DNA from: Bordetella parapertussis
GTDB lineage: Bacteria; Pseudomonadota; Gammaproteobacteria; Burkholderiales; Thiobacillaceae
Direction: 5' to 3'
DNA length: 64,000 bases
Assembly (NCBI GenBank): GCA_945890495.1
Contig: CAMDCO010000007.1
Coordinates: 1 to 64,000, forward strand
Shown here: positions 27,840 through 53,312 of the stretch, one piece after another
Layout: the number at the start of each line of letters is the position of its first letter
Numbering within the stretch: position 1 is the stretch's first letter
Made by a program: the position numbers and the translations under genes
Notes under the pieces: generated by a model
Databases searched by the model: none
What the model saw: only the letters and a program-made list of their open reading frames with translations
Told to the model about the DNA's origin: nothing

Positions 27840-29038
27840 TGTTACGCGCCGGGAATCGTATCGATTTGCTGGAAAACGGTGCGGCCTATTTCCCGGCCCT
27901 GATCGCAGCCATCGAGACGGCTGAGCGCGAGATCTACTTCGAGAGTTACCTCTTCGTGGCCGATCATATTGGCTATGAGGTCGCGCACGCCCTCAGCCGT
28001 GCCGTGTTGCGCGGGGTACGGGTCAGGGTGATGTTGGACGGGTTTGGGGCCTTGGGCTTCGATGGGGATATCCGCCATGAATGGCGGGTTACGGGTGTGG
28101 ATCTGCTCATTTACCGGCCGTCTCGGCTGGGCTTGCATTGGCCGCGCCTGCGTCGTCTGCATCGCAAGCTGGTGGTGATCGACGCGCGCACGGCCTTTGT
28201 CGGTGGCATCAATGTGATCGATGACCGTAATGCACCGGGGTGCCCGGACCATCGCTACGATTATGCGGTGCGCGTCGAAGGCCCCTTGTTGGCCGATATC
28301 TATCCCTCCACGCGACGCCTGTGGTGGCTCTTGTCCTGGAGCCAGTTGCACCGTCGGCCGGCCCGTTCCTCACGCGTGCTCATGGATATGACCCCGCGCG
28401 GTGAGGTCTTGGCGCAATTTGTGCTGCGCGACAACCTGCGCCACCGGCGTGACATCGAGCAGGCCTACCTGAGCGCCATCCGTAGCGCACGACACGAGAT
28501 CGTGATTGCGAACGCCTATTTTCTGCCCGGCATGGCCTTGCGTCATGCCCTGGTCGAGGCGGCCCAACGCGGTGTGCGGGTCGTCATCCTGTTACAGGGC
28601 CGTTCCGATCACCCCTTGGTGCGTAAGGCGACGCGAGCCCTGTACCGCCGATTCCTTGAGGCGGGTGTCGAGATTCGCGAATATCACGCCAGTTTTATGC
28701 ACGCTAAAGTCGCGGTCATTGACGATGCCTGGGCTACGGTGGGTTCGTCAAACATTGATCCCTTCAGCCTCTGGCTTGCGCTTGAGGCCAATGTCGTGAT
28801 TATCGATACGGGCTTTGCGCGGCAGTTACGCGCCAGTCTGGAGGCCGCGATCCAGCAGGGGAGTCATGCCGTGCACCGCATGACCTGGCGGCGCATCAGC
28901 CGGTTCGAGAAGATGGCTTCTTGGGTGGCCTACGGGATCCTGCGGGTGTTGATGGGCCTGGTCTGGCGCAGGGGTGCGCATAAAGGGGCGCCGGATGAAG
29001 GGGGCGAGGAAGGCGGCAATAAGGCCGATCTCGGATAG
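27839..29038 (+). CDS. clsB: Cardiolipin synthase B
   Basis: 399 residues. It has two phospholipase D motifs: [16 protein letters not shown] in the first half and [20 protein letters not shown] in the second. ClsB-type enzymes condense phospholipids to cardiolipin at the inner membrane without N-terminal membrane helices, which fits this sequence. The ATG at 27839 overlaps the preceding stop by one base. The C-terminus is charged and variable. Confidence 0.9.
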
Positions 29039-29076
29039 AATCGCCCTGTTTATGTGGGCATTCGGGAATCAGGGTC

Positions 29077-29805
29077 ATGGCAGGTCATAGTAAGTGGGCA
29101 AACATCCAGCATCGCAAGGGGCGGCAGGATGCCAAGCGGGGCAAGGTCTTTTCGCGCATCTCCAAGGAGATTACCGTTGCGGCGCGCATGGGCGGCGGTG
29201 ACATCAGCTTTAATCCGCGCCTGCGCATGGCGGTGGAAAAAGGCAAGGCCGAGAATATGCCCAATGACAATATCGACCGCGCCATCAAAAAAGGCACCGG
29301 CGAACTCGAAGGCGTGAGCTATGAAGAGGTGCGTTACGAGGGCTACGGCCCGGGCGGCGCGCCGGTGATCGTCGATTGTCTGACCGACAACAAGGTCCGT
29401 ACCGTGGCCGATGTGCGTCACGCCTTTTCCAAGTGCGGCGGTAATCTGGGTACCGATGGTTCCGTGGTGTTCCAGTTCAAGCATTGCGGCCAGATCATCC
29501 TGGAGCCGGGTGCGGATGAAGATCGCGTGATGGAGGTGGCGCTGGAGGCCGGGGCCGAGGATGTGCTGGCCAATGACGACGGCTCGATCGAGGTGCTGAC
29601 CGCGCCCACCGGTGAGCTGACGATGGTCAAAGACGCGTTGGTGGCCGCCGGATTCAGGCCGGTCATCGCGGAGATCACCATGAAGGCGCTGAATGAGACC
29701 GAGGTTGGCGACGATGACGCGGTCCGATTCCAGAAGATGCTCGACATGATCGACGACCTCGACGATGTCCAAGAGGTCTATACCGCAGCGATCTTGCCCG
29801 AGTGA
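29077..29805 (+). CDS. yebC: YebC/PmpR-family protein
   Basis: 242 residues. [37 protein letters not shown] and the segment [25 protein letters not shown] are diagnostic. Members are described as transcriptional regulators and more recently as ribosome-associated factors. In many proteobacteria it precedes ruvC, as here. The gene overlaps ruvC by 4 nt (GTGA). Confidence 0.95.
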
Positions 29806-30320
29806 AGATTCTCGGCCTTGATCCCGGCTTGCGTATCACCGGCTACGGCGTGATCGATCAGGTTGGGCAGCGGCTGGAGTATCAGGCGAGCGGGGTGGTG
29901 CGCACCGAAACCGGCGAGTTGCCAGGGCGCTTGGCCATCTTGTTTAATGGTGTGCGTGAGATGGTCGAGCAGTTTCGGCCCGAAGCGGCGGCGATAGAAA
30001 AGGTGTTCGTCAATGTCAACCCGCAATCGACGCTGTTGCTGGGCCAGGCGCGCGGGGCCTTGATCGCCGCACTGACCCATATGGGCCTGCCGGTGTTTGA
30101 ATACACCGCCTTGCAGGTCAAGCAGGCGGTGGTGGGTAACGGCCACGCCGACAAGGTACAGGTGCAACACATGGTTAAACGCTTGCTTAATCTGCCCGCT
30201 GAACCCTCTGCCGATGCGGCCGATGCGCTGGCCTGCGCCATCTGCCACGCTCATGGTGGCCAAGGCTTGGGTGCCATCATGACGGCGGGTCGGCGGCGCA
30301 AATCCGGCCGCATTTTGTAA
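29802..30320 (+). CDS. ruvC: Holliday junction endonuclease RuvC
   Basis: 172 residues, GTG start. RuvC resolves Holliday junctions. Acidic catalytic residues are seen in [17 protein letters not shown] (Asp7), [22 protein letters not shown] and the C-terminal [15 protein letters not shown]. It is the first of three adjacent ruv genes. Confidence 0.97.
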
Positions 30321-30333
30321 GGAAAATATCGAA

Positions 30334-30915
30334 ATGATCGGACGCATCACCGGAACGCTCGTCGAAAAGACCCCGCCACAGATCGTGGTTGATTGTCATG
30401 GCGTCGGCTATGAGGTCGATGTGCCGATGAGTTCGTTCTACAACCTGCCTGCCGTGGGTGAGCGGGTCAGCCTGCACACCCAGTTCGTGGTGCGCGAGGA
30501 CGCGCAACTCTTGTACGGCTTTCTTACCCTGAAAGAGCGCGAGGCCTTTCGCCTGCTCACGCGCATCACCGGCGTCGGCCCCAAGATGGCCTTGTCGGTG
30601 CTGTCCGGTCTGAGCGTCGATGAACTGGCGCAGACGGTGGCCTTGCAAGAGGTGGGCCGTTTGACACGCGTTCCCGGCGTTGGCAAGAAGACCGCCGAAC
30701 GGCTGCTGCTGGAACTCAAGGGCAAACTTGCCGATGCCTTGCCCAGCGTCGCGGGCGTCCACAGCCCCGCGAGCATTCAGCACGATGCCCTTGGCGCCTT
30801 GATGGCGCTCGGCTATTCCGACAAAGAGGCCTTGCCCTTGCTGAAGTCACTGCCGGAAGGCCTGAGCCTGGAAGAGGCGATCCGCCAGGCGCTTAAGATG
30901 TTGGTGAGGAAATGA
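30334..30915 (+). CDS. ruvA: Holliday junction branch migration protein RuvA
   Basis: 193 residues. RuvA holds the four-way junction and recruits RuvB. The N-terminal OB domain ([28 protein letters not shown]), the double helix-hairpin-helix ([18 protein letters not shown] and [21 protein letters not shown]) and a C-terminal RuvB-binding domain are visible. It overlaps ruvB by 4 nt. Confidence 0.97.
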
Positions 30916-31982
30916 CCATGCTCGAGCCTGACAAGTGGGCCCCTGACCGCCTGATTACACCCGGGCCCGCCTCGCGCGAGGAGGAGGTTTTTGAGCGCGC
31001 CTTGCGGCCGCAGTCCTTGGCTGAATATGTGGGCCAGGCCCGGGCGCGCGAACAGCTGGGAATCTTCATCGCGGCGGCGCGAAAGCGGGGTGAAGCGCTC
31101 GATCACACCCTGCTGTTCGGCCCGCCGGGCCTGGGTAAGACCACGCTGGCACATATCATCGCGCGCGAGATGGGGGTTAATCTGCGCAGCACCTCCGGGC
31201 CGGTGTTAGAGCGCGCCGGGGATCTGGCCGCCTTGCTGACCAATCTGGAGCCGCACGATGTGCTGTTCATCGACGAGATCCATCGCCTCTCGCCGGTGGT
31301 CGAAGAAATCCTCTACCCCGCACTCGAGGACTATCAGCTCGATATCATGATCGGCGAAGGTCCGGCAGCGCGTTCGGTCAAGCTGGATCTGCCGCCCTTT
31401 ACCCTGATTGGCGCCACCACCCGGGCTGGGATGCTGACCAACCCGCTGCGCGATCGTTTCGGCATCGTCGCGCGGCTGGAGTTTTATAACGCCGAGGAGT
31501 TGGCGCATATTGTTGAGCGCTCCGGGCGGCTGATGAAGGTGGCCATCGATCAGACCGGCGCGTTTGAGATTGCCCGGCGTTCGCGCGGCACGCCGCGTAT
31601 CGCCAACCGTCTGCTGCGCCGGGTGCGTGATTTTGCCGAGGTCAAGGCCGATGGCGCGGTGACGGTCGCGGTGGCCGATGCGGCGCTGAAGATGCTGGAG
31701 GTGGATCACGGGGGTCTGGATGTGATGGATCGAAAGCTGCTGTCTGCACTGCTGGAAAAGTTTGCGGGGGGGCCGGTCGGTCTGGAAAATCTGGCGGCGG
31801 CGATCAGTGAGGCGGCTGACACCATTGAAGATGTGCTGGAGCCTTATCTGATTCAGCAAGGTTTTTTGGCGCGCACCCCGCGCGGGCGAGTGGCGCAACC
31901 CTTGGCTTATCGCCATTTTGGCCTTGCCGCGCCCACTCGCATCCAGCCTGCGGAATTGTTCGATGAGTCGCGTCGAGAGTAG
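30912..31982 (+). CDS. ruvB: Holliday junction branch migration helicase RuvB
   Basis: 356 residues. AAA+ ATPase with Walker [14 protein letters not shown], Walker [12 protein letters not shown], sensor 1 GATTRAGML and the arginine-finger region PLRDRFGIV. The winged-helix C-domain ends [13 protein letters not shown]. It drives branch migration with RuvA. Confidence 0.97.
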
Positions 31983-31989
31983 AACGCAA

Positions 31990-32421
31990 ATGACGCCCTC
32001 CCTGTTTAACGCCTCGCCCTCAGTGGGTTTTACCTGGCCGGTGCGCGTCTATTGGGAGGATACCGATGCCGGCGGCGTGGTGTATTACGCCAATTACCTG
32101 AAGTTTCTGGAACGGGCGCGCAGCGAGTGGTTGCGTTCGCTGGATATTCATCAGGCCGAATTGGCGGCACAGGAGGGCGTACTGTTTGTGGTGCGCCGCG
32201 TGGAGGCCGATTATCTGAAGCCGGCGCGCTTTGACGACGAACTTCGCGTGCAGTGCCGCATCACCGAGATGGGCCGCGCCAGCCTGACCATGGCGCAACA
32301 GGTCCTGCGTGGCGATGAAGTGCTGTTGTCCGCACAAGTGAGGCTGGCCTGCGTGAGCGCAACCGGGATGCGACCCGCTAAAATCCCCCCCCATCTGTTT
32401 ATCAAATTGAGTACGGCATGA
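31990..32421 (+). CDS. ybgC: Tol-Pal system-associated acyl-CoA thioesterase
   Basis: 143 residues. Hot-dog fold with the YbgC motif VYWEDTDAGGVVYYANYLKFLERARSEWLR; the aspartate of DTDAGG is the catalytic residue. It hydrolyses short-chain acyl-CoAs and is linked to phospholipid metabolism. I chose the ATG at 31990, just after ruvB, over an in-frame codon inside ruvB. It overlaps tolQ by 4 nt. Confidence 0.94.
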   Translation: MTPSLFNASPSVGFTWPVRVYWEDTDAGGVVYYANYLKFLERARSEWLRSLDIHQAELAAQEGVLFVVRRVEADYLKPARFDDELRVQCRITEMGRASLTMAQQVLRGDEVLLSAQVRLACVSATGMRPAKIPPHLFIKLSTA

Positions 32422-33095
32422 ATCTAACGACGGATCTTTCCCTGTGGACCCTGGTGCTTGAGGCTAGCTGGGTTGTCAAAATGGTGATGTTGCTGTTGCT
32501 AGCGGCCTCGCTGTTGTCCTGGTGGCTGATCTTTCACAAGTGGTTCGCTTTTCGCCGTGAGGAGCGTGCCACGCGGGTCTTTGAGGGCGAGTTCTGGGCG
32601 GGGGGCGTGACCGAGATTCTGATGCGCAAGGCCGAGGCCAATGCCGGCAGCATGGAGCGCGTGTGCCGCGCCGGTTATAGGGCCTTTGAGCGGATGCATA
32701 AGCAACTGGGGGCGACCCCTGAGGCTATTTTGGAGAGCGCGCAACGCGCTATGCGTGCAGAGTACCAGCGCGAGATGGACCGACTGGAGTCGCACTTGCC
32801 GCTGTTGGCAACCATTGGTTCGGTGTCACCCTATGTGGGCCTGTTCGGGACGGTCTGGGGCATTATGAATGCCTTCCGCAACTTGTCGAATGTCTCTCAG
32901 GCGACGCTGGCGCATGTGGCGCCAGGGATCGCCGAGGCGCTGGTGGCGACCGCCATTGGCCTGTTTGCCGCTATCCCGGCGGTGATCGCCTACAACCACT
33001 TCACCCATGAGTTCGATCGATTGGCGAATCGTTTCGATGTCTTTATGGAGGAGTTCGCTAATGTCATGCAACGCTGGGGGCATCAGAAGTCATGA
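32418..33095 (+). CDS. tolQ: Tol-Pal system protein TolQ
   Basis: 225 residues. Inner-membrane proton-channel subunit, homologous to ExbB and MotA. Three membrane segments are evident; ATIGSVSPYVGLFGTVWGIMNAF and GIAEALVATAIGLFAAIPAVIAYN are the conserved second and third helices. Successive tol genes overlap by 4 nt, which indicates coupled translation. Confidence 0.96.
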   Translation: MNLTTDLSLWTLVLEASWVVKMVMLLLLAASLLSWWLIFHKWFAFRREERATRVFEGEFWAGGVTEILMRKAEANAGSMERVCRAGYRAFERMHKQLGATPEAILESAQRAMRAEYQREMDRLESHLPLLATIGSVSPYVGLFGTVWGIMNAFRNLSNVSQATLAHVAPGIAEALVATAIGLFAAIPAVIAYNHFTHEFDRLANRFDVFMEEFANVMQRWGHQKS

Positions 33096-33511
33096 TTCGT
33101 CAGCGCCCTCGGCGCGCCATGAGCCAGATGAATGTGGTTCCCTACATCGATGTGATGTTGGTGTTGCTGGTTATCTTTATGGCGACGGCCCCGTTCCTGA
33201 GCCCGTCGCAGGTCGAGCTGCCGCGCATCGGTCAGGGTAGTAGTACGCCGGTTGGACCTCTGGAAGTGGTGTTGCGGAGCGATGCCTCGCTGATCCTGCG
33301 TGATCGAGCGGCCGATGGGCGCGAAGAGCCCTTTACCGAGGGGCGTCTTGTGGCGGAGTTGCGCGCTCGGCAGGTGGCCCGGCCGGGGCAGCCGGTGGTC
33401 ATCGCGGGGGATCGCAACCTGCGCTATGAGCAAGTGATGCGCCTGATGGACCTCCTGCAGCGTGGCGGGGTCGAGCGTATTGGCCTGCTCGTCCAACCGG
33501 CCGCTTCATGA
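33092..33511 (+). CDS. tolR: Tol-Pal system protein TolR
   Basis: 139 residues. One N-terminal membrane helix (YIDVMLVLLVIFMATAPF) carries the conserved aspartate needed for proton use. The rest is a periplasmic ExbD/TolR domain ending in LMDLLQRGGVERIGLLVQP. It works with TolQ. Confidence 0.96.
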   Translation: MIRQRPRRAMSQMNVVPYIDVMLVLLVIFMATAPFLSPSQVELPRIGQGSSTPVGPLEVVLRSDASLILRDRAADGREEPFTEGRLVAELRARQVARPGQPVVIAGDRNLRYEQVMRLMDLLQRGGVERIGLLVQPAAS

Positions 33512-34356
33512 ATGCCTGGGCGATACCGCAAGCGGCAGGGCCTGCCCGAGCCTTAGGGGTGGATCGTTCGTCCTGGTGGGCGGGCATATTGTCAGTGCTG
33601 GTCCATGGCGGGTTGTTGTTGGTGCTGATACTGGGAGTCTCGTGGCGCAATGCGCCCAATCAGCCTGTCCAGGCGGAGATCTGGACGCGCCTGCCGGAGC
33701 CGGCCGTGATCTCCAGGCCCGAACCCGTTGCCGAGGCCCAACCCAAGGTGGAACCGCTCCCCGTACGCAAACCGGATATCGCCCTCAAACCCAAGCTTGA
33801 ACCGAAACGGGCCAGCAAACCACCGGTTTCCAAGGTGGAACTGAAAAAGAGCGAGGCCCAGAAACAAGAAGTACAAAAACGCGAGTCGAATAAACGCGAG
33901 TCGAATAAACGAGAAGTGGCTCGCCGCGCCCTGGATCAAGCGTTGGCGAAGGAGGCCCTGGAGACCCTGGATGCCGATCTGGCACAGGTGAAGGCGCAGG
34001 CCTTGCAGCAACGGACGGAGAGTCGCGCACACACGGCGGCCCAGCTTAAGGCGATAGCGATTCGGGATGCCCAGGAGCGTATCCGCCTCAAGATCCGTGG
34101 CCTGTTGCGGATTCCAGAAGGCGTCAAGGGTAATCCGGAGGTGGTGTATCTGGTGCGCCTGTTCCCCAACGGGGAGATCATGGGGGCGCCGGAACGGATT
34201 CAATCGAGTGGCCAACCGGCGTATGACGCGGCGGTTGAAGCCGCCATCCTCAAGGCCTCCCCATTGCCGTTGCCTACGGGTGCGGGTGCGGGGGCGGGGG
34301 CGGCGGCCGATTTTCGCGAGGGCCTGGAATTGCGTTTCCGGCCACGCGAAGGATAA
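33508..34356 (+). CDS. tolA: Tol-Pal system protein TolA
   Basis: 282 residues, shorter than E. coli TolA (421). It has a membrane helix near residues 28-47, then a Pro/Lys-rich and Lys/Glu/Arg/Gln-rich helical region, then a TonB-like C-terminal domain (PEVVYLVRLFPNGEIMGAPERIQSSGQPAYDAAVEAAI). A 15-bp unit encoding RESNK is repeated twice near 33885-33914. TolA spans the periplasm to reach TolB and Pal. Confidence 0.93.
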   Translation: MNAWAIPQAAGPARALGVDRSSWWAGILSVLVHGGLLLVLILGVSWRNAPNQPVQAEIWTRLPEPAVISRPEPVAEAQPKVEPLPVRKPDIALKPKLEPKRASKPPVSKVELKKSEAQKQEVQKRESNKRESNKREVARRALDQALAKEALETLDADLAQVKAQALQQRTESRAHTAAQLKAIAIRDAQERIRLKIRGLLRIPEGVKGNPEVVYLVRLFPNGEIMGAPERIQSSGQPAYDAAVEAAILKASPLPLPTGAGAGAGAAADFREGLELRFRPREG

Positions 34357-34425
34357 GGGAGGCCGGCGATTAAGGGAGGCCGATGCTACAATCGCCTTGG
34401 TTTTTGTGTGGGGTAAAAGGATCCT

Positions 34426-35679
34426 GTGCAGCGCGTATTTGTTAGCCTGTTTTTGATGTGGATGGCCGGCCCGGTGTGGTCGGCGATGACCATTGAGATC
34501 GTCGGTGGCGCGGCCAACCGCATTGTGGTGGCGATCGGCCCCTTTGGCCCGGTGGCGGCCGGCCAGGACGATGTCGCGCGGGTTTTGGCGGACGACCTTT
34601 CTCTGAGCGGACAGTTTCGCATCGTCAACGAACCCTCCCTGCAGGTGGGCGATGTGTTGACGGCCGGTTTTGGCCGGATGCGCAAGAATGATGTCGATGC
34701 GGTCGTCGTCGGGCAGGTGACGACCTTGCCGGATAAGAGTGTTGAGGTGCGCTTCCGGCTTTATGACGCGGTGCGGGCGCGTCAGATGGTGGGTTTCAGC
34801 TATGTGGTGCCCCCTCGGGCGGTGCGGGGTGTGGCGCACCGGATCGCCGAGGAGATCCACCTGGCCTTATTAGGATCGCCAGGGGCCTATGGTGGGCGGA
34901 TGACCTATGTGGTTAAGCAGGGCGGTCGGTTTGCCCTCAAGGTCTCTGATATTGATGGGCACAATGCCTTTAGCGTGTTTGAGTCGGCCGAACCGATCAT
35001 CTCGCCGGCCTGGTCTCCGGATGGCAACCGGGTTGCCTATGTCTCCTTCGAGGAGCAGCGCCCCATTGTCTATGTGCAAACCTTGAGTGATGGACAGCGC
35101 CGGGCCGTGGCGCGTTTCCGGGGTTCGAACTCCGCCCCGGCTTGGTCGCCGGATGGAAAATATTTGGTGGTGGCGCTGACGCGGGATCAGTCTTCGCAGT
35201 TATATCGGGTGGATGCGTCAGGTCAGGAGGAGCCCACTCGATTGATGCGGAGCGCATCCATCGATACCGAGCCGGTCTATAGCCAGGATGGGCGCTTTAT
35301 CTTTTTTACCTCCGATCGGGGCGGGTCGCCGCAGATCTATCGGTTTGAATTGGCCTCGGGCGAGGCCCTGCGCATGAGCTTTGAGGGTAGCTACAATGTT
35401 TCTCCGGCGCTGTCCAAGGATGGGCGCTGGCTGGCCTTTGTGCATCGCGCCGAGGGGGCGTTCCGGATCGCGGTCATGGATTTGTCCACGCGACAGGTGC
35501 AAGTTTTAACCGAAACCGATTATGATCAGTCGCCGAGTTTTGCACCCAATGATCGTATTGTGCTTTACGCCACCCGGGTACAGGGCCGGGGTGTGCTGGC
35601 AACCGTTTCCCTGGATGGAAAGATCAAGCAGCGGTTGACGCAAGAGGGTGATTTGCGCGAACCGGCTTGGTCGCCCTGA
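34426..35679 (+). CDS. tolB: Tol-Pal system beta-propeller protein TolB
   Basis: 417 residues, GTG start behind AAAGGA, with a signal peptide of about 20 residues ending VWSA. After an N-terminal alpha/beta domain come repeated propeller blades, recognised by SPAWSPDGNRVAYVS, APAWSPDGKYLVV and EPVYSQDGRFIFFTSDR. It is periplasmic and binds Pal and TolA. A -10-like TACAAT at 34387-34392 may give it its own transcript. Confidence 0.95.
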   Translation: MQRVFVSLFLMWMAGPVWSAMTIEIVGGAANRIVVAIGPFGPVAAGQDDVARVLADDLSLSGQFRIVNEPSLQVGDVLTAGFGRMRKNDVDAVVVGQVTTLPDKSVEVRFRLYDAVRARQMVGFSYVVPPRAVRGVAHRIAEEIHLALLGSPGAYGGRMTYVVKQGGRFALKVSDIDGHNAFSVFESAEPIISPAWSPDGNRVAYVSFEEQRPIVYVQTLSDGQRRAVARFRGSNSAPAWSPDGKYLVVALTRDQSSQLYRVDASGQEEPTRLMRSASIDTEPVYSQDGRFIFFTSDRGGSPQIYRFELASGEALRMSFEGSYNVSPALSKDGRWLAFVHRAEGAFRIAVMDLSTRQVQVLTETDYDQSPSFAPNDRIVLYATRVQGRGVLATVSLDGKIKQRLTQEGDLREPAWSP

Positions 35680-35704
35680 TCGTTAATAGACAAGGTAGGT
35701 TTAT

Positions 35705-36346
35705 ATGCTTCGTTATGTTGTGATGGGGGTCGTTCTGTCCATGACCCTGGCCGGGTGTGCGAACAAACCAAGCAAGGAGGCGCCGATCGAGACGCGCGCT
35801 GCGCTGGAGGCGGTCAACAAGACGGTCGTGCCGAGCAAGGCGGTCTTGGCTCCACCGGTGCAACCGACGAAAACGCTGAGCGAGGCGGGGAAAACGCGTC
35901 CGCTCCGTAGCGATGAGATGCAGTCCAAGCCGCTCGACCCGCAAGCGGCGCCTGAATCGGCCAAAATCGAGCCGGTGAAGAGCGTCGTGGTGGTGCCGCC
36001 GGTTCGCCCCAAGGCACGCACCTTCCAGTTTGACTATGACAGCGCGACCCTGGCCGCCGCCGATCACGCGAGCCTAGAAGCACACGGGGCCTTTCTGAAG
36101 GCGCAGCCGAGTCTGGAGTTGATGGTACAGGGCCATGCCGACGAACGCGGTAGCCGTGAGTACAATCTGGCGCTGGGGCAGCGTCGTGCCGAAAGCGTCA
36201 AACAGGCCCTGGGTTTGCTGGGTATTCCTGAGGCCCGTATCGAGGCGGTCAGTCTGGGTTCCGAGAAACCGGTGACAGAAGGGCATGACGAGGCGGCGTG
36301 GAAACAAAACCGCCGGGCGATCCTGATCTACAAGGATGAGCGATAA
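35705..36346 (+). CDS. pal: Peptidoglycan-associated lipoprotein Pal
   Basis: 213 residues. A lipoprotein signal with lipobox LAGC (Cys18) is followed by a Pro/Ala-rich linker. The OmpA-type domain then binds peptidoglycan: TFQFDYDSATLAAADHASLEAHG, VQGHADERGSREYNLALGQRRAESV and the C-terminal NRRAILIY. It anchors the outer membrane to the wall and completes the Tol-Pal complex. Confidence 0.95.
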   Translation: MLRYVVMGVVLSMTLAGCANKPSKEAPIETRAALEAVNKTVVPSKAVLAPPVQPTKTLSEAGKTRPLRSDEMQSKPLDPQAAPESAKIEPVKSVVVVPPVRPKARTFQFDYDSATLAAADHASLEAHGAFLKAQPSLELMVQGHADERGSREYNLALGQRRAESVKQALGLLGIPEARIEAVSLGSEKPVTEGHDEAAWKQNRRAILIYKDER

Positions 36347-36350
36347 AGAC

Positions 36351-37181
36351 ATGGGTCGATTACGGGTTGCCCTTTTATTGAGCACAGCGCTGTGTTTGAC
36401 GCAGGCCGTGGCCGCTGAACCGGTTCGTACCGACACTTCGGGCGTTGATGCCCGGCGTATGCAGGAGCGTTTGGAGCGTCTGGAAGCCCAACTGCAGAAC
36501 CAGGGTCTGCTCGGTTTGCTGACCCGACTGGAGGAGAGCCGGTCAGAGATTGCCCGGTTGCGGGGCGCGTTGGAGGAGTTTTCACACCAGTTGAAACTCG
36601 CCGAGCAGCGGCAGAAAGATTATTACCAAGATCTTGATCAGCGCTTGAAGGCGCTGGACACGCGCTTGGCGGCCGTCGTGGCGAAGCCGGCGGAAGGGTT
36701 TAATCTGCAATCAGCGGTTGCGATCAAAGGGGGAGGGAAGCCGGCGGTTCAAGCGGTGATTCAACCGGCGGCAAGCACGCCGGTTCCCGTTCAGACCCCT
36801 GTGGGTGTCGAGGGTGTGGCGCTTTACGAAAAGGGTTTGGCCGTCTTCAAACGCGGCAAGTATCCGGAGGCGGTGGCCGCCTTCGAGCAATATGTGAAGG
36901 ATTACCCCGATAGCGACCTGACGGCGAACGCCCTCTACTGGTTGGGTCTGTCGTATCTGGCGATGGAAGATTTCAAGCAGGCCGCTGAGGTGCAACAGCG
37001 CCTGATCAAGGCTTTTCCCAAGCATGACAAACGCGCTGATGCGATGTTGAGTCTGGCGCGGGTACAGAAGAGTCTGAAACAGAACCCGGCGGCGCGCGAG
37101 ACGCTGGATCAACTAATCGCGCAATATCCGAAGAGCAAGGCCGCTGGCACCGGCCGCAAGCTGCGCGCCATCCTCGACTAA
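36351..37181 (+). CDS. cpoB: Cell division coordinator CpoB (YbgF)
   Basis: 276 residues from the ATG at 36351, chosen because it places a signal peptide (RVALLLSTALCLTQAVAA) at the N-terminus; an ATG 15 nt upstream, inside pal, is the alternative. A coiled coil with many Glu, Gln and Leu residues (about 25-95) leads to TPR repeats (VALYEKGLAVFKRGKYPEAVAAFEQYVKDYPDSD and two more). CpoB links Tol-Pal to PBP1b activity in E. coli. Confidence 0.93.
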   Translation: MGRLRVALLLSTALCLTQAVAAEPVRTDTSGVDARRMQERLERLEAQLQNQGLLGLLTRLEESRSEIARLRGALEEFSHQLKLAEQRQKDYYQDLDQRLKALDTRLAAVVAKPAEGFNLQSAVAIKGGGKPAVQAVIQPAASTPVPVQTPVGVEGVALYEKGLAVFKRGKYPEAVAAFEQYVKDYPDSDLTANALYWLGLSYLAMEDFKQAAEVQQRLIKAFPKHDKRADAMLSLARVQKSLKQNPAARETLDQLIAQYPKSKAAGTGRKLRAILD

Positions 37182-46805: not shown

Positions 46806-47177
46806 TCACCCTACAGCCGTCTGCGCAATCAGCACATCGGCCGGGATGCCCAGGCCTTTGTGCAGTCTACGGATCATGGCTAGCGTCAGCGGACGCTTGC
46901 GGTTCAGGACTTCGTAGACGCGGTTGCTTTTGCCAATAATCGGCTCCAGATCTTTGATGGATAGACCACTCTGATCCATCCGGAATTTGATGGCTTCCAC
47001 CGGGTCAGGCGCGGTGATGGGTATGTGCTTGGCCTCGTAGGCTTGCACCAGCGTGGCCAGGATGTCCAGACGATCACCCTCCGGCGTGCCCGGATCAGGG
47101 TCGGACTCCATCAAGGCTGAAATCTCTTTGAGCGTGGCCTTGTAGTCTGCTTCGGTGTGGATAGGGCGAATGTCCAT
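46806..47177 (-). CDS. higA: HigA-type antitoxin
   Basis: 123 residues. A C-terminal helix-turn-helix, IKFRMDQSGLSIKDLEPIIGKSNRVYEVLNRKRPLTLAMIRRLHKGLGIPADVLI, follows an N-terminal helical part starting MDIRPIHTEADYKATLKEI. This is the HigA layout, where antitoxin represses its own operon. It lies downstream of higB on the minus strand, 18 nt apart, which is the HigBA gene order. Confidence 0.9.
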   Translation of the reverse strand: MDIRPIHTEADYKATLKEISALMESDPDPGTPEGDRLDILATLVQAYEAKHIPITAPDPVEAIKFRMDQSGLSIKDLEPIIGKSNRVYEVLNRKRPLTLAMIRRLHKGLGIPADVLIAQTAVG

Positions 47178-47195: not shown

Positions 47196-47498
47196 TCAGG
47201 CTATTTCAACGGTTTCTGCGTCCACGGCGTCGTACTCCTTGTGGGTGCCGACAAACTTCACATAGACGATCTGCAATTTGTACGCAACGGCCACGATCAG
47301 CCGGTAGTCATTGCCTTTGATGTTGAAGACCATTCGACGGTTTTTCAGCACGCTGGCGCTACGGTATTGTGCCTTGATGTCAGCGGGCTGGGCCCAGGCC
47401 GCATTCATGGCTTCCTCGTACCAAGCCTTTAGCGGCTGCTCGGCATCGGGATAGCGCTCCCAGAAGGCCCGAAGGGTAGCCACGGCAATCACTCGCAT
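47196..47498 (-). CDS. higB: HigB-type mRNA interferase toxin
   Basis: 100 residues from the ATG at 47498 (family start MRVIAxxTLRxFWxxxPDAEQPL). RMVFNIKGNDYRLIVAVAYKLQIVYVKFVGTHKEYD is the conserved core of HigB, a ribosome-dependent RNase. The frame stays open 12 codons further upstream, but those residues do not fit the family. Confidence 0.92.
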   Translation of the reverse strand: MRVIAVATLRAFWERYPDAEQPLKAWYEEAMNAAWAQPADIKAQYRSASVLKNRRMVFNIKGNDYRLIVAVAYKLQIVYVKFVGTHKEYDAVDAETVEIA

Positions 47499-47536
47499 GG
47501 GCCGAAGCTTAGTCCCATAATGGGACTTTGGCAAGT

Positions 47537-47579: not shown

Positions 47580-48962
47580 CTAGGGTTGCCGGTCCACGAG
47601 GTGCGGGGTGAGAAAGACGAGCAATTCGCGGTCACGCCGGGTCTGGCCTTCGCTGCGGAACAGGCGTCCGAGCAGGGGGATGTCGGTCAGCAAGGGGATG
47701 CCGCTCTGGCTGTCGCCCCGGTCTTCTTGATAGATGCCGCCCAGGATCAGGGTTTCGCCATGTTTGACCCGGACGCGGGTCTTGAGGCGGTGGGTGTCGA
47801 TGGGGAAGGCCTCGGCACCTTGGCCGTTGCTGCCGTTCAGGCTGCGGCCGCGACTGTCTTTGTGCACTTCAATGTCGAGTTCGATCAGGTCGTTGTCGAG
47901 GATGTTGGGCGTGACCAGGAGGCAGAGCAGGGCGTCCTTGTAGGTGGTCTGGGTGCTGATGCTGCCGTTGGTGGTGGTGCTGTTTTGGATCGGCAGTTGT
48001 TCGCCCTGGGTGATGACGGCGGGGTTGCGGTTTAGGGTCATGACGCGAGGGTTGGCGATGATGCGGCCTTTTTCTGTTTGCTCCAGGGCGTCGAGTTCGA
48101 CGCGCAGCAGGTCGGTGGTGGCGGCGGCGAGGGGGCTGGCGTCGGTCAGGGTCGCGGGCAGGATCATGAGGCTGCTGCCCTGCGCCCAACGCGCCCCGAG
48201 CCGGATGCCGAGGTTGCGACTGAAGGTGGTGTCGGCAATGACGATGCGGGCCTCCAGCATGACTTGGCGCGTGGGTTGGTCAAGCAGGGCGAGGAGGCGT
48301 TGCAGGGTGGCGAGGCGCGACGGGCTGTCTTTGATCAGTAGACGCGGGTAGGCGTGATCGATCAGGAGTTGGCCTTTGGGGCTGAGTAGCCTGGGCCCGG
48401 CCGCCGAAGGGTTGGGCCCGCGTTCGGAAGGGGACTGTCGTGCCGGTGTTTGGCGGGTGGCGCTTGAGGTGGGTTGGGTCACCTCGGAACCGCAACTGAC
48501 CGGGCTTGCGCTCGACTGCCAGGGACGGCCTTCGATCAGGGCGGCGGCTTGTTCGACCGGCAGGTGACGGAGCGGGATCGCGACAAACTCCGCCGCCGGG
48601 CGTTCTTCCTGGCGTTCTTTGTTGAGGACGCGAAGGGCGCGGCCGTGCGGTTCTGTCGCCAGTCGTTTGCTGGCCAGGATGAGGTCTAGCGCCTCTTGCC
48701 AGGGCAGATCACGGACCTTGAGGGTGACTGTGCCGGTGATGTCTTCGTCAATGATGAGGCCTTGCCCGGAGAGGTCGGCGACCATGCGCAGGGCTTGGCG
48801 CACCTCAACACCGTCCAGATTGAGGTCGATGCGACCGGGGGTGGGCGGGGCGGTGAGCGGGGCGGTGGTGGGTGGGGTCGGGGCCGCACTCGTCGCAAAA
48901 GAGGGGGCGGCGAAGGACAGGGTGGCGGCCACGAAGAGTGGGGTCAGGGCGCGTAAGGTCAT
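47580..48962 (-). CDS. pilQ: Type IV pilus secretin PilQ, short form
   Basis: 460 residues against roughly 700 in Pseudomonas PilQ. A signal peptide (about 1-23, ending SFA) is followed at once by an STN-type domain (DLNLDGVEVRQALRMVADLSGQGLIIDE). Then comes a weakly conserved linker and the secretin domain (VMLEARIVIADTTFSRNLGI, RIIANPRVMTLNRNPAVITQGEQLP, LKTRVRVKHGETLILGGIYQED, ELLVFLTPHLV). The AMIN domains that bind peptidoglycan are missing. The gene overlaps pilOP by 4 nt. It should form the outer-membrane pore. Confidence 0.85.
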   Translation of the reverse strand: MTLRALTPLFVAATLSFAAPSFATSAAPTPPTTAPLTAPPTPGRIDLNLDGVEVRQALRMVADLSGQGLIIDEDITGTVTLKVRDLPWQEALDLILASKRLATEPHGRALRVLNKERQEERPAAEFVAIPLRHLPVEQAAALIEGRPWQSSASPVSCGSEVTQPTSSATRQTPARQSPSERGPNPSAAGPRLLSPKGQLLIDHAYPRLLIKDSPSRLATLQRLLALLDQPTRQVMLEARIVIADTTFSRNLGIRLGARWAQGSSLMILPATLTDASPLAAATTDLLRVELDALEQTEKGRIIANPRVMTLNRNPAVITQGEQLPIQNSTTTNGSISTQTTYKDALLCLLVTPNILDNDLIELDIEVHKDSRGRSLNGSNGQGAEAFPIDTHRLKTRVRVKHGETLILGGIYQEDRGDSQSGIPLLTDIPLLGRLFRSEGQTRRDRELLVFLTPHLVDRQP

Positions 48963-49873
48963 GGCGGGTTTCCGATCAGAAGGGACTGGCGGCCGGTGTC
49001 TTGCTGAACTTCAATGCCGTTCGGGAGGATGGCGAGTACCCGAGCGCTACGATCGCCTAGCCGCATCCCGGGCCGAATCGTGTGGGTCTTTCCGGCGGGC
49101 GTGCGTACCAGCGCATAGTGGTCGTGCTCGGCGCGGCCGACGGCAATGACCCGGTAGGCGGAGAGGGGGAGTTCTTCCAGCGCGGTTCGGGGTTTGGCGA
49201 CTACTTTGGGGCGGGCCTGAAACAGCGCTGCGGTGGGTGTGTTTGTAAGAATGGGGTGCGATTCGGCCCCGCGGATACAAACTTGTAGGGAAAGGGTCGT
49301 TATCCCGCGATCGTCGGGGGTTAGGGTGAAGCGCTCGACAGAATGCGGGCCGCGTAACAGGTCTTGGAGCAGGCCCTGGACAGCGAGGGGCGCGCCGTGC
49401 ATTTTTAGGCGCAGCCGTTGGCCATCGGGTTTGGCGTTGGCAGGGAGTGGGGTGTAGTCGAGCAGATGAACAGAGCGGGCGTGAGCGAGGCCTTGCAGGT
49501 ACGGCCAAGGGTCTGGTGCCGATGGGGGCGTGGCGGTTGCTGCGGTGTTTGGAGGGCTTAAGGGGTTTATGGGGTTTAAGGGGCTTAAGGGATTTATGGC
49601 ATGCAGGGCGTGGGTCAAGGCCTGAGCCTCGCGGAGGCGTTCATCCAACCCGCGAAGCTCGATCGTGCCGGCGCGAAGCTGGGCCTCAAGGGTGTGGATG
49701 TGGTCTTGCGTGGGCCAGATCCAGAGCGCTAGCCAGAGGGCACCGATGCAGAGTGGCCCGACGGCCAGTGCGCCATGGTGCATCCCTGCGGGGACTTGGC
49801 CATAGCGCAGCAGGGCGCGAGAGAGCGTGTGCGAAAGGCGTGTGAAAAGGTCGCTCATGCGGTCGTCGTTCAT
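48959..49873 (-). CDS. PilO-PilP fusion protein
   Basis: 304 residues from the ATG at 49873, which overlaps the upstream stop (ATGA). The N-terminal part has one membrane helix (about 33-52), a short helical region (HIHTLEAQLRAGTIELRGLDERLREAQAL) and a PilO-like core. A linker of repeated INPLSPLNPINPLSPP precedes that core. The last 75 residues (ALEELPLSAYRVIAVGR ... GKTHTIRPGMRLGDRSARVLAILPNGIEV) read as the PilP beta domain. PilP is normally a separate lipoprotein; no lipobox is present here. The gene maps between pilN and pilQ. Confidence 0.75.
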   Translation of the reverse strand: MNDDRMSDLFTRLSHTLSRALLRYGQVPAGMHHGALAVGPLCIGALWLALWIWPTQDHIHTLEAQLRAGTIELRGLDERLREAQALTHALHAINPLSPLNPINPLSPPNTAATATPPSAPDPWPYLQGLAHARSVHLLDYTPLPANAKPDGQRLRLKMHGAPLAVQGLLQDLLRGPHSVERFTLTPDDRGITTLSLQVCIRGAESHPILTNTPTAALFQARPKVVAKPRTALEELPLSAYRVIAVGRAEHDHYALVRTPAGKTHTIRPGMRLGDRSARVLAILPNGIEVQQDTGRQSLLIGNPP

Positions 49874-50991
49874 GGCGTTGTCGATGGCCTCGGCGAGCAG
49901 GTGGCCGGGAGTTGGAGCGCAAAGCGCAGTGGGCCATGGGTGTCGCGGTGGCCCTCGCTCAGATGGGGACACGGCAGGGCCTTGAGCAGACGGGTAAGGG
50001 CGGCCGGGGTTTGCGCCAGACCTTCAAGCCGTAGCCCTTGGCTGTCGTAGCTCAGGCTGTGGTAGCGCACTTCCTGAGGACGCCTGCGGGCCAGTTGATC
50101 CAGTCGTGCGGCCCAAGCCTGTTGTTGGCGCTGCGTGGCTTCACGCGCCGCCCGCTCGGCTTGCTGTGCGGCTTGTTGGGTGGCGAGTTGCTGGCGGAGT
50201 TGGGCGAGGTTGGGCAGTTGGGCCTGACGGGTCTTGATGGCCTCCATCAGCCGAGCCTGTTGGGAGGTGAGGGCCTGTTCATGGGCTATTTGCTGGGTGG
50301 CGATCCAGAGCGCTGGCAGGATGGCCAGCAGGCTGGTGGCCGCTAGCCATGTGAAGCGGCGTTGGCCTTGTTTCAACCAGGCGGCGTTGCGCCAGGGGAT
50401 AAGGTTGAACGGGGCGGATGCGGGGTCGGCGGGGGGCGAATCGTTTTCTGGGGTGATGGCGACGCAGCGTAAGCCGGCGGCCTGTACGGCCTCAAGGTAG
50501 GCTGCGATCAAGGCGCGCGGGGCTAGGCAGAGCGCGATTTCATCTGTTGAGATGCGCTGCCAGTCAAAGGCGATCGGTGCAGTGTGGCCTAGTTCGGCGG
50601 CGATCTGTGTGGCCATCTGGGCGGCCAGCGCGTGGGCCTCGGCCTCGGTGACCCCGACGGGGAAGGCTCGGTGTGCTATGCGGCATTGCGCGGCGGGGAT
50701 GACCAGGGTGAGTGCGTCGAGGGGCCCCGGCAACGCGGCACTCGCAGAACGCAGCGCGGCCGCGAGTAGAGCGGGGTCGGGGGGTGAGCCCTCGGCCATG
50801 GCGAGAGGGGCGTGGCCTTCGGCTAGGGGGTCGTGACCCGCTACAGGCCGGTTTTCCGGGGGCGCGTGGTCAGGGCCGTGGAGTGGGTCGTAAATAAGCA
50901 TTTGGACCCCCGATGCGCTAAGATGCGCAACGGCATGCAACGAGGATCGTTGGGGTCGTTTTATCCGAATGGGCAGTACGCTTAGGTTCAT
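49870..50991 (-). CDS. PilM-PilN fusion protein (PilM part shortened)
   Basis: 373 residues. Residues about 1-165 resemble the N-terminal half of PilM, the actin-like cytoplasmic protein (LTLVIPAAQCRIAHRAFPVGVTEAEAHALAAQMATQIAAEL, then ALIAAYLEAVQAAGLRCVAITPE). The nucleotide-binding second half is absent. PFNLIPWRNAAW near 196 is the typical PilN start, followed by a membrane helix (about 222-242), a long Gln/Ala-rich coiled coil and a PilN-like domain. In standard systems PilM binds the PilN N-terminus, so a fusion is structurally plausible. It is divergent from mrcA, the usual position of pilM. Confidence 0.72.
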   Translation of the reverse strand: MNLSVLPIRIKRPQRSSLHAVAHLSASGVQMLIYDPLHGPDHAPPENRPVAGHDPLAEGHAPLAMAEGSPPDPALLAAALRSASAALPGPLDALTLVIPAAQCRIAHRAFPVGVTEAEAHALAAQMATQIAAELGHTAPIAFDWQRISTDEIALCLAPRALIAAYLEAVQAAGLRCVAITPENDSPPADPASAPFNLIPWRNAAWLKQGQRRFTWLAATSLLAILPALWIATQQIAHEQALTSQQARLMEAIKTRQAQLPNLAQLRQQLATQQAAQQAERAAREATQRQQQAWAARLDQLARRRPQEVRYHSLSYDSQGLRLEGLAQTPAALTRLLKALPCPHLSEGHRDTHGPLRFALQLPATCSPRPSTTP

Positions 50992-51053
50992 GAGCCACCG
51001 TCCGAATGGGCTGGAGTGACGCGGAACCGGGCGGGTGCAGAAGAGGTTTTGTG

Positions 51054-53312
51054 ATGCAAAAGTGGCGTTTTATGCGTGTGGTTTGGGGCGGCTTGGCGGC
51101 GATCGTTGTGGCGACGATTGCCGTGACCGGTCTGTCGGCGGCGGTGTTGTATCCGAACCTTCCGGATGTGGCGACCCTGAAGGATTACAGCCCCAAGCTG
51201 CCCTTGCGGGTCTACACCGAGGACGGGGCCTTGATCGGTGAGTTTGGCGAGGAGAAACGCTCGGTCGTGGCGTTGAAAAACACGCCGCTGATCTTGCGCA
51301 GGGCGATTCTGGCGGCAGAAGACGAGCGTTTCTACGAACACGGTGGTGTGGACTCCCTCGGCGTTTTGCGCGCTGCTGTTTCGAATGTGCTCTCCGGTGG
51401 GGCCAAGGAGGGCGCGTCCACGATCACCATGCAGGTGGCGCGCAACTTCTTCCTGTCGTCCGAGAAAAGCTTCAAGCGAAAGATAAACGAAGCTTTGCTG
51501 GCCGTCAAAATTGAGAGCGCCCTGAGTAAAGATGAGATCTTGGAGTTGTATATTAACCAGATCTACCTCGGGCAGCGGGCCTATGGTTTCGAGGCGGCGG
51601 CCCGCGTCTATTTTGGCAAGCCGCTGGATCAGATTGATCTGGCCGAGGCGGCCATGCTGGCGGGCCTGCCCAAGGCGCCATCGGCCTATAACCCGGTGGT
51701 TAATTTCCCGCGCGCCAAGATCCGCCAGCAGTATGTGCTGAAGCGGATGCGCGACATCAAATACATTACCGAGGCTGAATTTGACCAAGCGCAACGGCGC
51801 AAGCTGGTGATTCGCTATACCCCGCAGACCTTCGATGCCGCGGCCGATCACCTGGCCGAGCTGGTGCGGCAATACATGTTCCAGAAGTACGGCGAGCAGA
51901 TCTACAAGACCGGGATGCGCGTCTATACGACCCTGCGTATTGCGGACCAAAAGGCGGCGGTCGATGCGGTGCGCGCTGGGGTGGTGGAATACACGCGTCG
52001 CCATGGCTATCCGGGTGCTGAGGCGCAACTGACCCTGCCCGCCAATGCCTTGGACCGTGAGGCGGCGATCGCGGATGCCCTGGCGGCTCGGGGCGAGCTG
52101 AATGGCTTGTTGCCGGCCGTGGTGCTGCGGGTCGATAGCAAACGAATCCGGGTGCGCCTGCGCGGTGGCGACGAGGTCGATCTCGGCCCGGCGGAGATCG
52201 AATTCGCGCAAGCGGCCATCGGCCCCAAGGCGAGCGCGGCGCGTCGTTTGCGGCCAGGTTCGGTGGTGCGAGTGGTGCGTCTGGGGCCTACTCAACCCTG
52301 GCTGTTGACGGCCACGCCGCAGGTGGAGGCCGCCTTGGTTTCGCTGTCGCCGGAGAGCGGCGCGATCCGGGCCTTTGTGGGCGGTTTCGACTTTGTCCGT
52401 AGTCAGTACAACCATGTCACTCAGGCCTTGCGGCAACCGGGCTCAACCTTCAAGCCGTTCATCTACTCGGCGGCCTTGGAGCGCGGCATCACGCCGGCGA
52501 CGGTCTTCGATGACGCGCCCCTCCGCATCAACCCGGCCTTGACGGGCGGTGTGGAGTGGAACCCGCAGAACTATGATCGTGAAAACGAAGGGCCGATGAC
52601 GATGCGTCGGGCCCTTTATAAATCCAAGAACCTGGTTTCCATTCGGGTCTTGGAGGCGACCGGATTGGAGTTTGCCCAGCAGCACGCCCAGCGTTTTGGT
52701 TTTCCAGCCGAGCGCGTGCCGGCCCTCTACACCCTCGCGTTGGGGGCCAACGAGGCAACGCCGCTGGAGATGGCGGCAGGCTATGCGGTGTTTGCCAACG
52801 GCGGGCTGCGGGTCAAACCGCACTATCTGTTGCGGGTCACGGACAAGAATGGCCAGCCGCTAGAAAACTTTAGCACCCCGGAAGTCGAGCCCGTGCTGGA
52901 TCCGCGCAATGCCTTCGTGATGACCACCCTGTTGCAGGATGTGGTGCGTCGGGGCACGGCGGTGAAGGCGATGGAACTGGGGCGGCTGGATCTGGCAGGC
53001 AAGACCGGCACGACGGATGACACGCGCGACACCTGGTTTGCGGGCTTTGGGCCGACCCGGGTGGCAGTGTCTTGGCTAGGTTTTGATCAACCCCGCCCGA
53101 CCGGCGAGACAGGTGGCGCGGCGGCCTTGCCGATCTGGATTCGTTACATGGGGGCGGCGTTACGCAATGTGCCCGAGGTCGGCTATGCCACACCAGAGGG
53201 GGTGAGTGTCCAGTCGGTGAACCCGGTCACCGGGCGGCCGGACCCGCAAGGGGTGGCGGAGTATTTCCTGGAGGAATTTCCGCCAGGCAGGCCTTTGCCC
53301 GCGCGGCGTTGA
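51054..53312 (+). CDS. mrcA: Penicillin-binding protein 1A
   Basis: 752 residues from the ATG at 51054, with AAGAGG upstream. One membrane anchor (about 7-30) leads to a glycosyltransferase domain (EDERFYEHGGVD; EGASTITMQVARNFFLS; ELYINQIYLGQRAYG). The transpeptidase has SXXK in RQPGSTFKPF, SxN in SKNLVS and KTGT in GKTGTTDDT. It makes and crosslinks peptidoglycan. Its divergence from the pilM gene is a conserved proteobacterial arrangement. Confidence 0.95.
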   Translation: MQKWRFMRVVWGGLAAIVVATIAVTGLSAAVLYPNLPDVATLKDYSPKLPLRVYTEDGALIGEFGEEKRSVVALKNTPLILRRAILAAEDERFYEHGGVDSLGVLRAAVSNVLSGGAKEGASTITMQVARNFFLSSEKSFKRKINEALLAVKIESALSKDEILELYINQIYLGQRAYGFEAAARVYFGKPLDQIDLAEAAMLAGLPKAPSAYNPVVNFPRAKIRQQYVLKRMRDIKYITEAEFDQAQRRKLVIRYTPQTFDAAADHLAELVRQYMFQKYGEQIYKTGMRVYTTLRIADQKAAVDAVRAGVVEYTRRHGYPGAEAQLTLPANALDREAAIADALAARGELNGLLPAVVLRVDSKRIRVRLRGGDEVDLGPAEIEFAQAAIGPKASAARRLRPGSVVRVVRLGPTQPWLLTATPQVEAALVSLSPESGAIRAFVGGFDFVRSQYNHVTQALRQPGSTFKPFIYSAALERGITPATVFDDAPLRINPALTGGVEWNPQNYDRENEGPMTMRRALYKSKNLVSIRVLEATGLEFAQQHAQRFGFPAERVPALYTLALGANEATPLEMAAGYAVFANGGLRVKPHYLLRVTDKNGQPLENFSTPEVEPVLDPRNAFVMTTLLQDVVRRGTAVKAMELGRLDLAGKTGTTDDTRDTWFAGFGPTRVAVSWLGFDQPRPTGETGGAAALPIWIRYMGAALRNVPEVGYATPEGVSVQSVNPVTGRPDPQGVAEYFLEEFPPGRPLPARR

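Follow-up and report, generated by a model that had tools for sequence, protein, structure and literature searches.

Fused PilM-PilN and PilO-PilP genes in a condensed type IVa pilus operon of uncultured Thiobacillaceae

Analysis of a 64,000-nucleotide stretch of DNA (positions 1 to 64,000 of contig CAMDCO010000007.1, assembly GCA_945890495.1, family Thiobacillaceae; hereafter the window) revealed a type IVa pilus operon in which pilM, pilN, pilO, pilP and pilQ are represented by three genes: half of pilM fused to pilN, pilO fused to pilP, and a short pilQ. The PilO-PilP fusion was confirmed to be real. We consider it probable that the pilMNOPQ operon was condensed in place to this form, and that its products build a ring of 1:1 subunits with altered docking of the motor ATPase PilB, in a working pilus likely used for DNA uptake. 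The original prediction, made from the letters of the window, had covered only the PilO-PilP pair; its mechanism was mostly right and its interpretation partly supported, while the PilM-PilN fusion, the short PilQ and a shortened PilB change the meaning to that of a condensed scaffold.

The PilO-PilP gene (48959-49873, minus strand) encodes a single chain of 304 amino acids, as predicted. Its open reading frame begins with ATG, a start position backed by alignment with relatives, and it is joined by ATGA overlaps to both flanking genes, PilM-PilN upstream and PilQ downstream. The C-terminal region was recognised as PilP by profile: PF04351 matched residues 225-290, within the last 80 residues (E-value 8.7e-6; 26.2 bits, above the curated cut-off of 25.6), starting at position 62 of the Pfam model, and the best sequence match in the PDB was also a PilP (3jc8_Pa, E-value 0.0044). 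The AlphaFold2 model of the chain, built from an alignment of three sequences, showed a transmembrane and coiled-coil helix, followed by an αββ-αββ core and then a beta domain; the predicted local distance difference test score (pLDDT) was 70-83 over most of both domains, and the predicted template modelling score of the whole chain was 0.30. The top PDB matches of this model in Foldseek were PilO and PilP. VIA-align placed residues 119-204 (49262-49519, minus strand) on Pseudomonas aeruginosa PilO (2rjz_B; Z 12.4, root-mean-square deviation 2.2, 85 residues aligned) and residues 227-303 (48965-49195, minus strand) on PilP (2y4y_B; Z 11.0, 76 aligned), so that the two domains matched independently and in operon order. 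The inner-membrane helix that had been expected corresponds to the highest hydropathy stretch of the chain, at about residues 34-52 (49718-49774, minus strand; GALAVGPLCIGALWLALWI), which is a helix in the model.

The PilO-like core of the original prediction held by predicted fold, whereas the PilO profile PF04350 gave no match in the fusion protein or in the assembled genome. A profile-profile test against 15 PilO sequences from relatives was likewise not significant (probability below 1%), and the PilO identity is therefore carried by fold and gene order: the model contains the transmembrane segment, coiled coil and ferredoxin-like core of a PilO, and the gene sits between the positions of pilN and pilP/pilQ.

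The fusion lacks the lipoprotein signal and the disordered N-terminal tail of PilP. No lipobox was found in any of the five proteins of the genus, while 14 of 16 separate PilP proteins of relatives matched a lipobox pattern, which agrees with the proposal that a transmembrane anchor has replaced the lipid one. The accompanying description of PilP as an outer-leaning lipoprotein was mistaken, since PilP of Pseudomonas is an inner-membrane-associated lipoprotein (PMC5805733). A search of the assembled genome, 80.8% complete, for a second pilP returned only a chance-level match (E-value 0.3); a missing copy is unlikely, if not strictly excluded, since four sister genomes agree.

Upstream, the gene at 49870-50991 (minus strand) encodes a second fusion, of 373 amino acids. 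Its C-terminal part carries the features of PilN: the motif FNLIPWR (50389-50409, minus strand), which aligned with INLLPHR of PilN and lies inside the fused chain, a transmembrane segment at the hydropathy maximum (residues 213-231; 50299-50355, minus strand; FTWLAATSLLAILPALWIA) and a periplasmic ferredoxin-like core (residues 286-364; 49900-50136, minus strand; 5hl8_A, Z 10.1). The PilN profile PF05137 scored just under its cut-off (21.3 against 22.8; E-value 2.9e-4), and a local PilN profile matched residues 195-339 (E-value 3.6e-13). The N-terminal part matched residues 57-182 of PilM by profile-profile comparison (probability 85%) and the PilM fold (5eox_A, Z 11.5; 3jc8_Ma, Z 11.9; cyto-EpsL 1yf5, Z 9.3), with no match to PF11104 in the chain. 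This part (residues 15-188; 50428-50949, minus strand) comprises only the N-terminal lobe, equivalent to residues 10-173 of the approximately 354 of P. aeruginosa PilM. Downstream lies a PilQ secretin of 460 amino acids (47580-48962, minus strand) with Secretin and STN domains, which exceeded the cut-off of the type IVa pilus secretin model TIGR02515 (313.3 against 284.35 bits); it has no AMIN domain, which is present in the 759-residue PilQ of a relative.

The genus comprises the window genome and four others (G001-G004), all metagenome-assembled and uncultured; the genomes are small (1.2-1.7 Mb), and the source is described as a freshwater bacterium. Both fusions were found in G001, G002 and G004 as in the window, and in G003 a short contig breaks off after PilM-PilN and the PilO part, so that the change from five genes to three is seen in all four readable members. 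A match to PF04350 was absent from all five genomes of the genus and present throughout the 20 genomes searched from the rest of the family. The other genera of the family have a canonical PilO (best matches with E-values of 1e-38 to 1e-55) and separate pil genes at the same site, next to ponA; the relatives considered included the Burkholderiales/Betaproteobacteria metagenome assemblies SXRG01000058.1 and VGVU01000022.1. In the window, ponA (PBP1a, with Transgly and Transpeptidase domains) is the divergent neighbour that marks this ancestral locus (51006-53312, plus strand), and the order ftsQ-ftsA-ftsZ-lpxC, pil, ponA is common to G002 and G023. In a search of 399 genomes of the order, the whole PilO-PilP chain was matched in the window genome only, weaker matches being to the PilP end. 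Because the ancestral neighbours were kept and the PilQ tree places the genus within its own family (support 100), on a long branch, the fusions most likely arose in place.

Fusion of PilO to PilP is already known. It was noted for Pseudomonas putida (UniProt Q88CU9), together with the 1:1 inference, by Korotkov et al. in 2011 (PMC3169554), so that the fixed PilO:PilP ratio of the original prediction stands as an implication but is an argument already in print. By that paper's description, the P. putida protein joins the same two partners in one chain, and no PilM-PilN fusion is mentioned there; nor did a search of one literature library turn up any mention of such a fusion. The condensed operon and the joint loss of PilM and PilB domains described below are the new parts. 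A class-wide PilP search with follow-up of weak matches revealed PilO-PilP fusions in at least seven further gammaproteobacterial families among the strong matches listed (f81, f88, f110, f129, f146, f165 and f202), of which f165 and f202 also contain unfused relatives. In G529, G566, G452, G510, G493/G721 and G445/G589/G695 the PilO-PilP fusion occurs without a PilM-PilN fusion, while G474 (f110) has both, in the same three-gene layout as the genus. The PilQ of these lineages is short, as here (398-450 amino acids), with no PilQ seen next to the fusion in G529, and in several of them, unlike in this genus, the PilO part was found by the PilO profile. Their operons are distant from the genus on the PilQ tree. 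Among the lineages outside Burkholderiales the internal supports of that tree (38-87) do not settle the number of fusion origins, and the unfused G771 and G644 fall among the fused ones. Separately, two PilQ-PilP loci (L151 and L150) were observed in G721 (f129), PilO and PilP being separate in one and fused in the other; this genome is 58% complete and fragmented, and contamination is therefore possible.

The three-gene layout of G474 might suggest that the genus gained a condensed operon by horizontal transfer from a small-genome gammaproteobacterium of that kind, and the PilM-PilN proteins of the two do share 24% identity over 245 amino acids (E-value 2.8e-10). Their PilO-PilP proteins, however, show no significant similarity (E-value 0.33), the PilQ tree separates the genus from G474, and the PilN tree, although too weak to place the genus, pairs G474 with G452 (support 85) instead. 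With the ancestral neighbour genes also kept, such a transfer is very unlikely, and the double fusion of G474 probably arose independently.

As regards function, the ratio of nonsynonymous to synonymous substitution rates (dN/dS) was 0.31-0.36 for PilO-PilP, 0.41-0.47 for PilM-PilN, 0.11 for PilB and 0.15 for PilQ, and these substitution patterns show purifying selection. PilB and PilC were found in the window genome and in other genomes of the genus, pilins are present, a PilT/PilU family ATPase is encoded in G001-G004, and ComEC is encoded in all five members. The operon is best read, from its sequence, as encoding an alignment complex of a type IVa pilus that is condensed yet probably functional, with DNA uptake as its probable use; a pilus that retracts to take up DNA would be the most economical explanation. 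The ComABCDE system of Haemophilus and the HofMNOPQ system of Escherichia coli likewise combine a short PilM with a short PilQ for DNA uptake; their genes are not known to be fused. The window PilQ also matched the HofQ models, below their cut-offs.

Several observations weigh against this interpretation. The PilO part is known by predicted fold only, from a model with a shallow alignment and a mean pLDDT of 60; the lack of a C-terminal PilM lobe holds for the fused chain, no search having been aimed at a separate PilM elsewhere in the genomes of the genus; PilT did not turn up in the incomplete genome of the window; and PilM-PilN diverges faster than PilB and PilQ, which is compatible with relaxed constraint. 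A genus in the course of losing its type IV pili, with the fusions as read-through debris of genome reduction, would fit this divergence, which PilO-PilP shares, as well as the small genomes and the loss of half the length of PilM. Decay of this kind is nevertheless unlikely: the reading frames of both fusions are intact in every species read, even where identity falls to about 40%, dN/dS is well under 1, and PilB, PilC, PilQ, PilT/U and ComEC have been kept. It is also conceivable that the 304-residue protein belongs to a type II secretion system as a GspC/GspM-type component, since GspC contains a PilP-like HR domain (PMC3169554), and the PilP domain of the model indeed matched that of 3oss (Z 8.8), while the core matched PulM. 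The pilus structures matched better, however, the adjacent gene is a pilQ above the family cut-off, and the operon stands at the ancestral pil locus. Moreover, the window genome has what looks like a type II secretion system of its own on a different contig (G000:C18, about 28800-36600, L197), a separate cluster of the GspE/GspF type that includes pilin-like genes, with no comparable matches in the sister genomes searched. This assignment is accordingly extremely improbable.

The condensation of the operon was accompanied by a change in PilB. In the window genome, G002 and G004, PilB has 419-425 amino acids, matches TIGR02538 from position 172 and lacks the MshEN domain, whereas the PilB of a family relative has 573 amino acids and contains it. 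Short PilB proteins without MshEN were also found in G474 (375 amino acids), G566 (438), G493 (365), G510 (390) and G452 (396), while MshEN was kept in G529 and G695. PilM is of half length in the genus and G474 and has 205 amino acids in G566; G493 has a 196-residue open reading frame without Pfam match in its place. It has 284 amino acids in G452, 327 in G529 and 310-317 in f81. All half-length PilM proteins examined occur together with a PilB that lacks MshEN, in few lineages and with counts not corrected for kinship; G510 is the exception in the other direction, its PilM of 340 amino acids retaining both ends although its PilB lacks MshEN. The joint loss is not accounted for by small genomes alone, because neither loss is seen in f81, with genomes of 1.4-1.6 Mb. 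The N-terminal domain of PilB has been placed against PilM by analogy with GspE-GspL, a docking derived from type II secretion homologues (PMC11656802, PMC8389850). Tentatively, as a possibility that falls somewhat short of probable, the C-terminal lobe of PilM and the MshEN domain of PilB may constitute a single regulatory interface that type IVa pili can dispense with. Separate lineages would then have lost the two together, and the alignment complex that remains, reduced to a minimum of two fused proteins, would still power a working pilus.

Adjoining pilQ on its other side, a HigB-type toxin gene was observed (47196-47534, minus strand; PF09907, E-value 3.5e-33), followed downstream by its likely antitoxin (46806-47177, minus strand). 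This pair occupies the place that lpxC and ftsZ have in G023 and G002.

The proposed sequence of events starts from an ancestral type IVa pilus operon, pilM-pilN-pilO-pilP-pilQ, that would have been condensed to three overlapping genes. Within the fused chain PilM has lost its C-terminal lobe, the remaining N-terminal lobe becoming joined to PilN, and PilQ has lost its AMIN domains. In Pseudomonas, the disordered N-terminus of PilP binds PilNO and its beta domain binds PilQ (PMC5805733); here PilP has lost the lipid anchor and this tail, its PilQ-binding beta domain being kept and the covalent link to PilO taking over from the PilNO-binding tether. The two fusion proteins are expected to pair through the ferredoxin cores of PilN and PilO, forming a ring in which the subunits stand in a fixed 1:1 ratio and which would connect the cytoplasmic motor to the secretin, comparable to GspL, GspM and GspC in the type II secretion system, where GspM and GspC are separate proteins. 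PilB without MshEN would then need to dock through PilC and the remaining part of PilM, and the pilus would still work, most likely for DNA uptake.

In Coxiella, pili genes have been described but no pilP (PMC3882888), an absence that a PilO-PilP fusion may explain. More generally, the fusions would fix stoichiometry and show where contacts within the pilus machine are required: the operon argues for 1:1 ratios of PilM to PilN and of PilO to PilP, and the joint loss in PilM and PilB points to the PilM-MshEN contact as a regulatory module that may be discarded.
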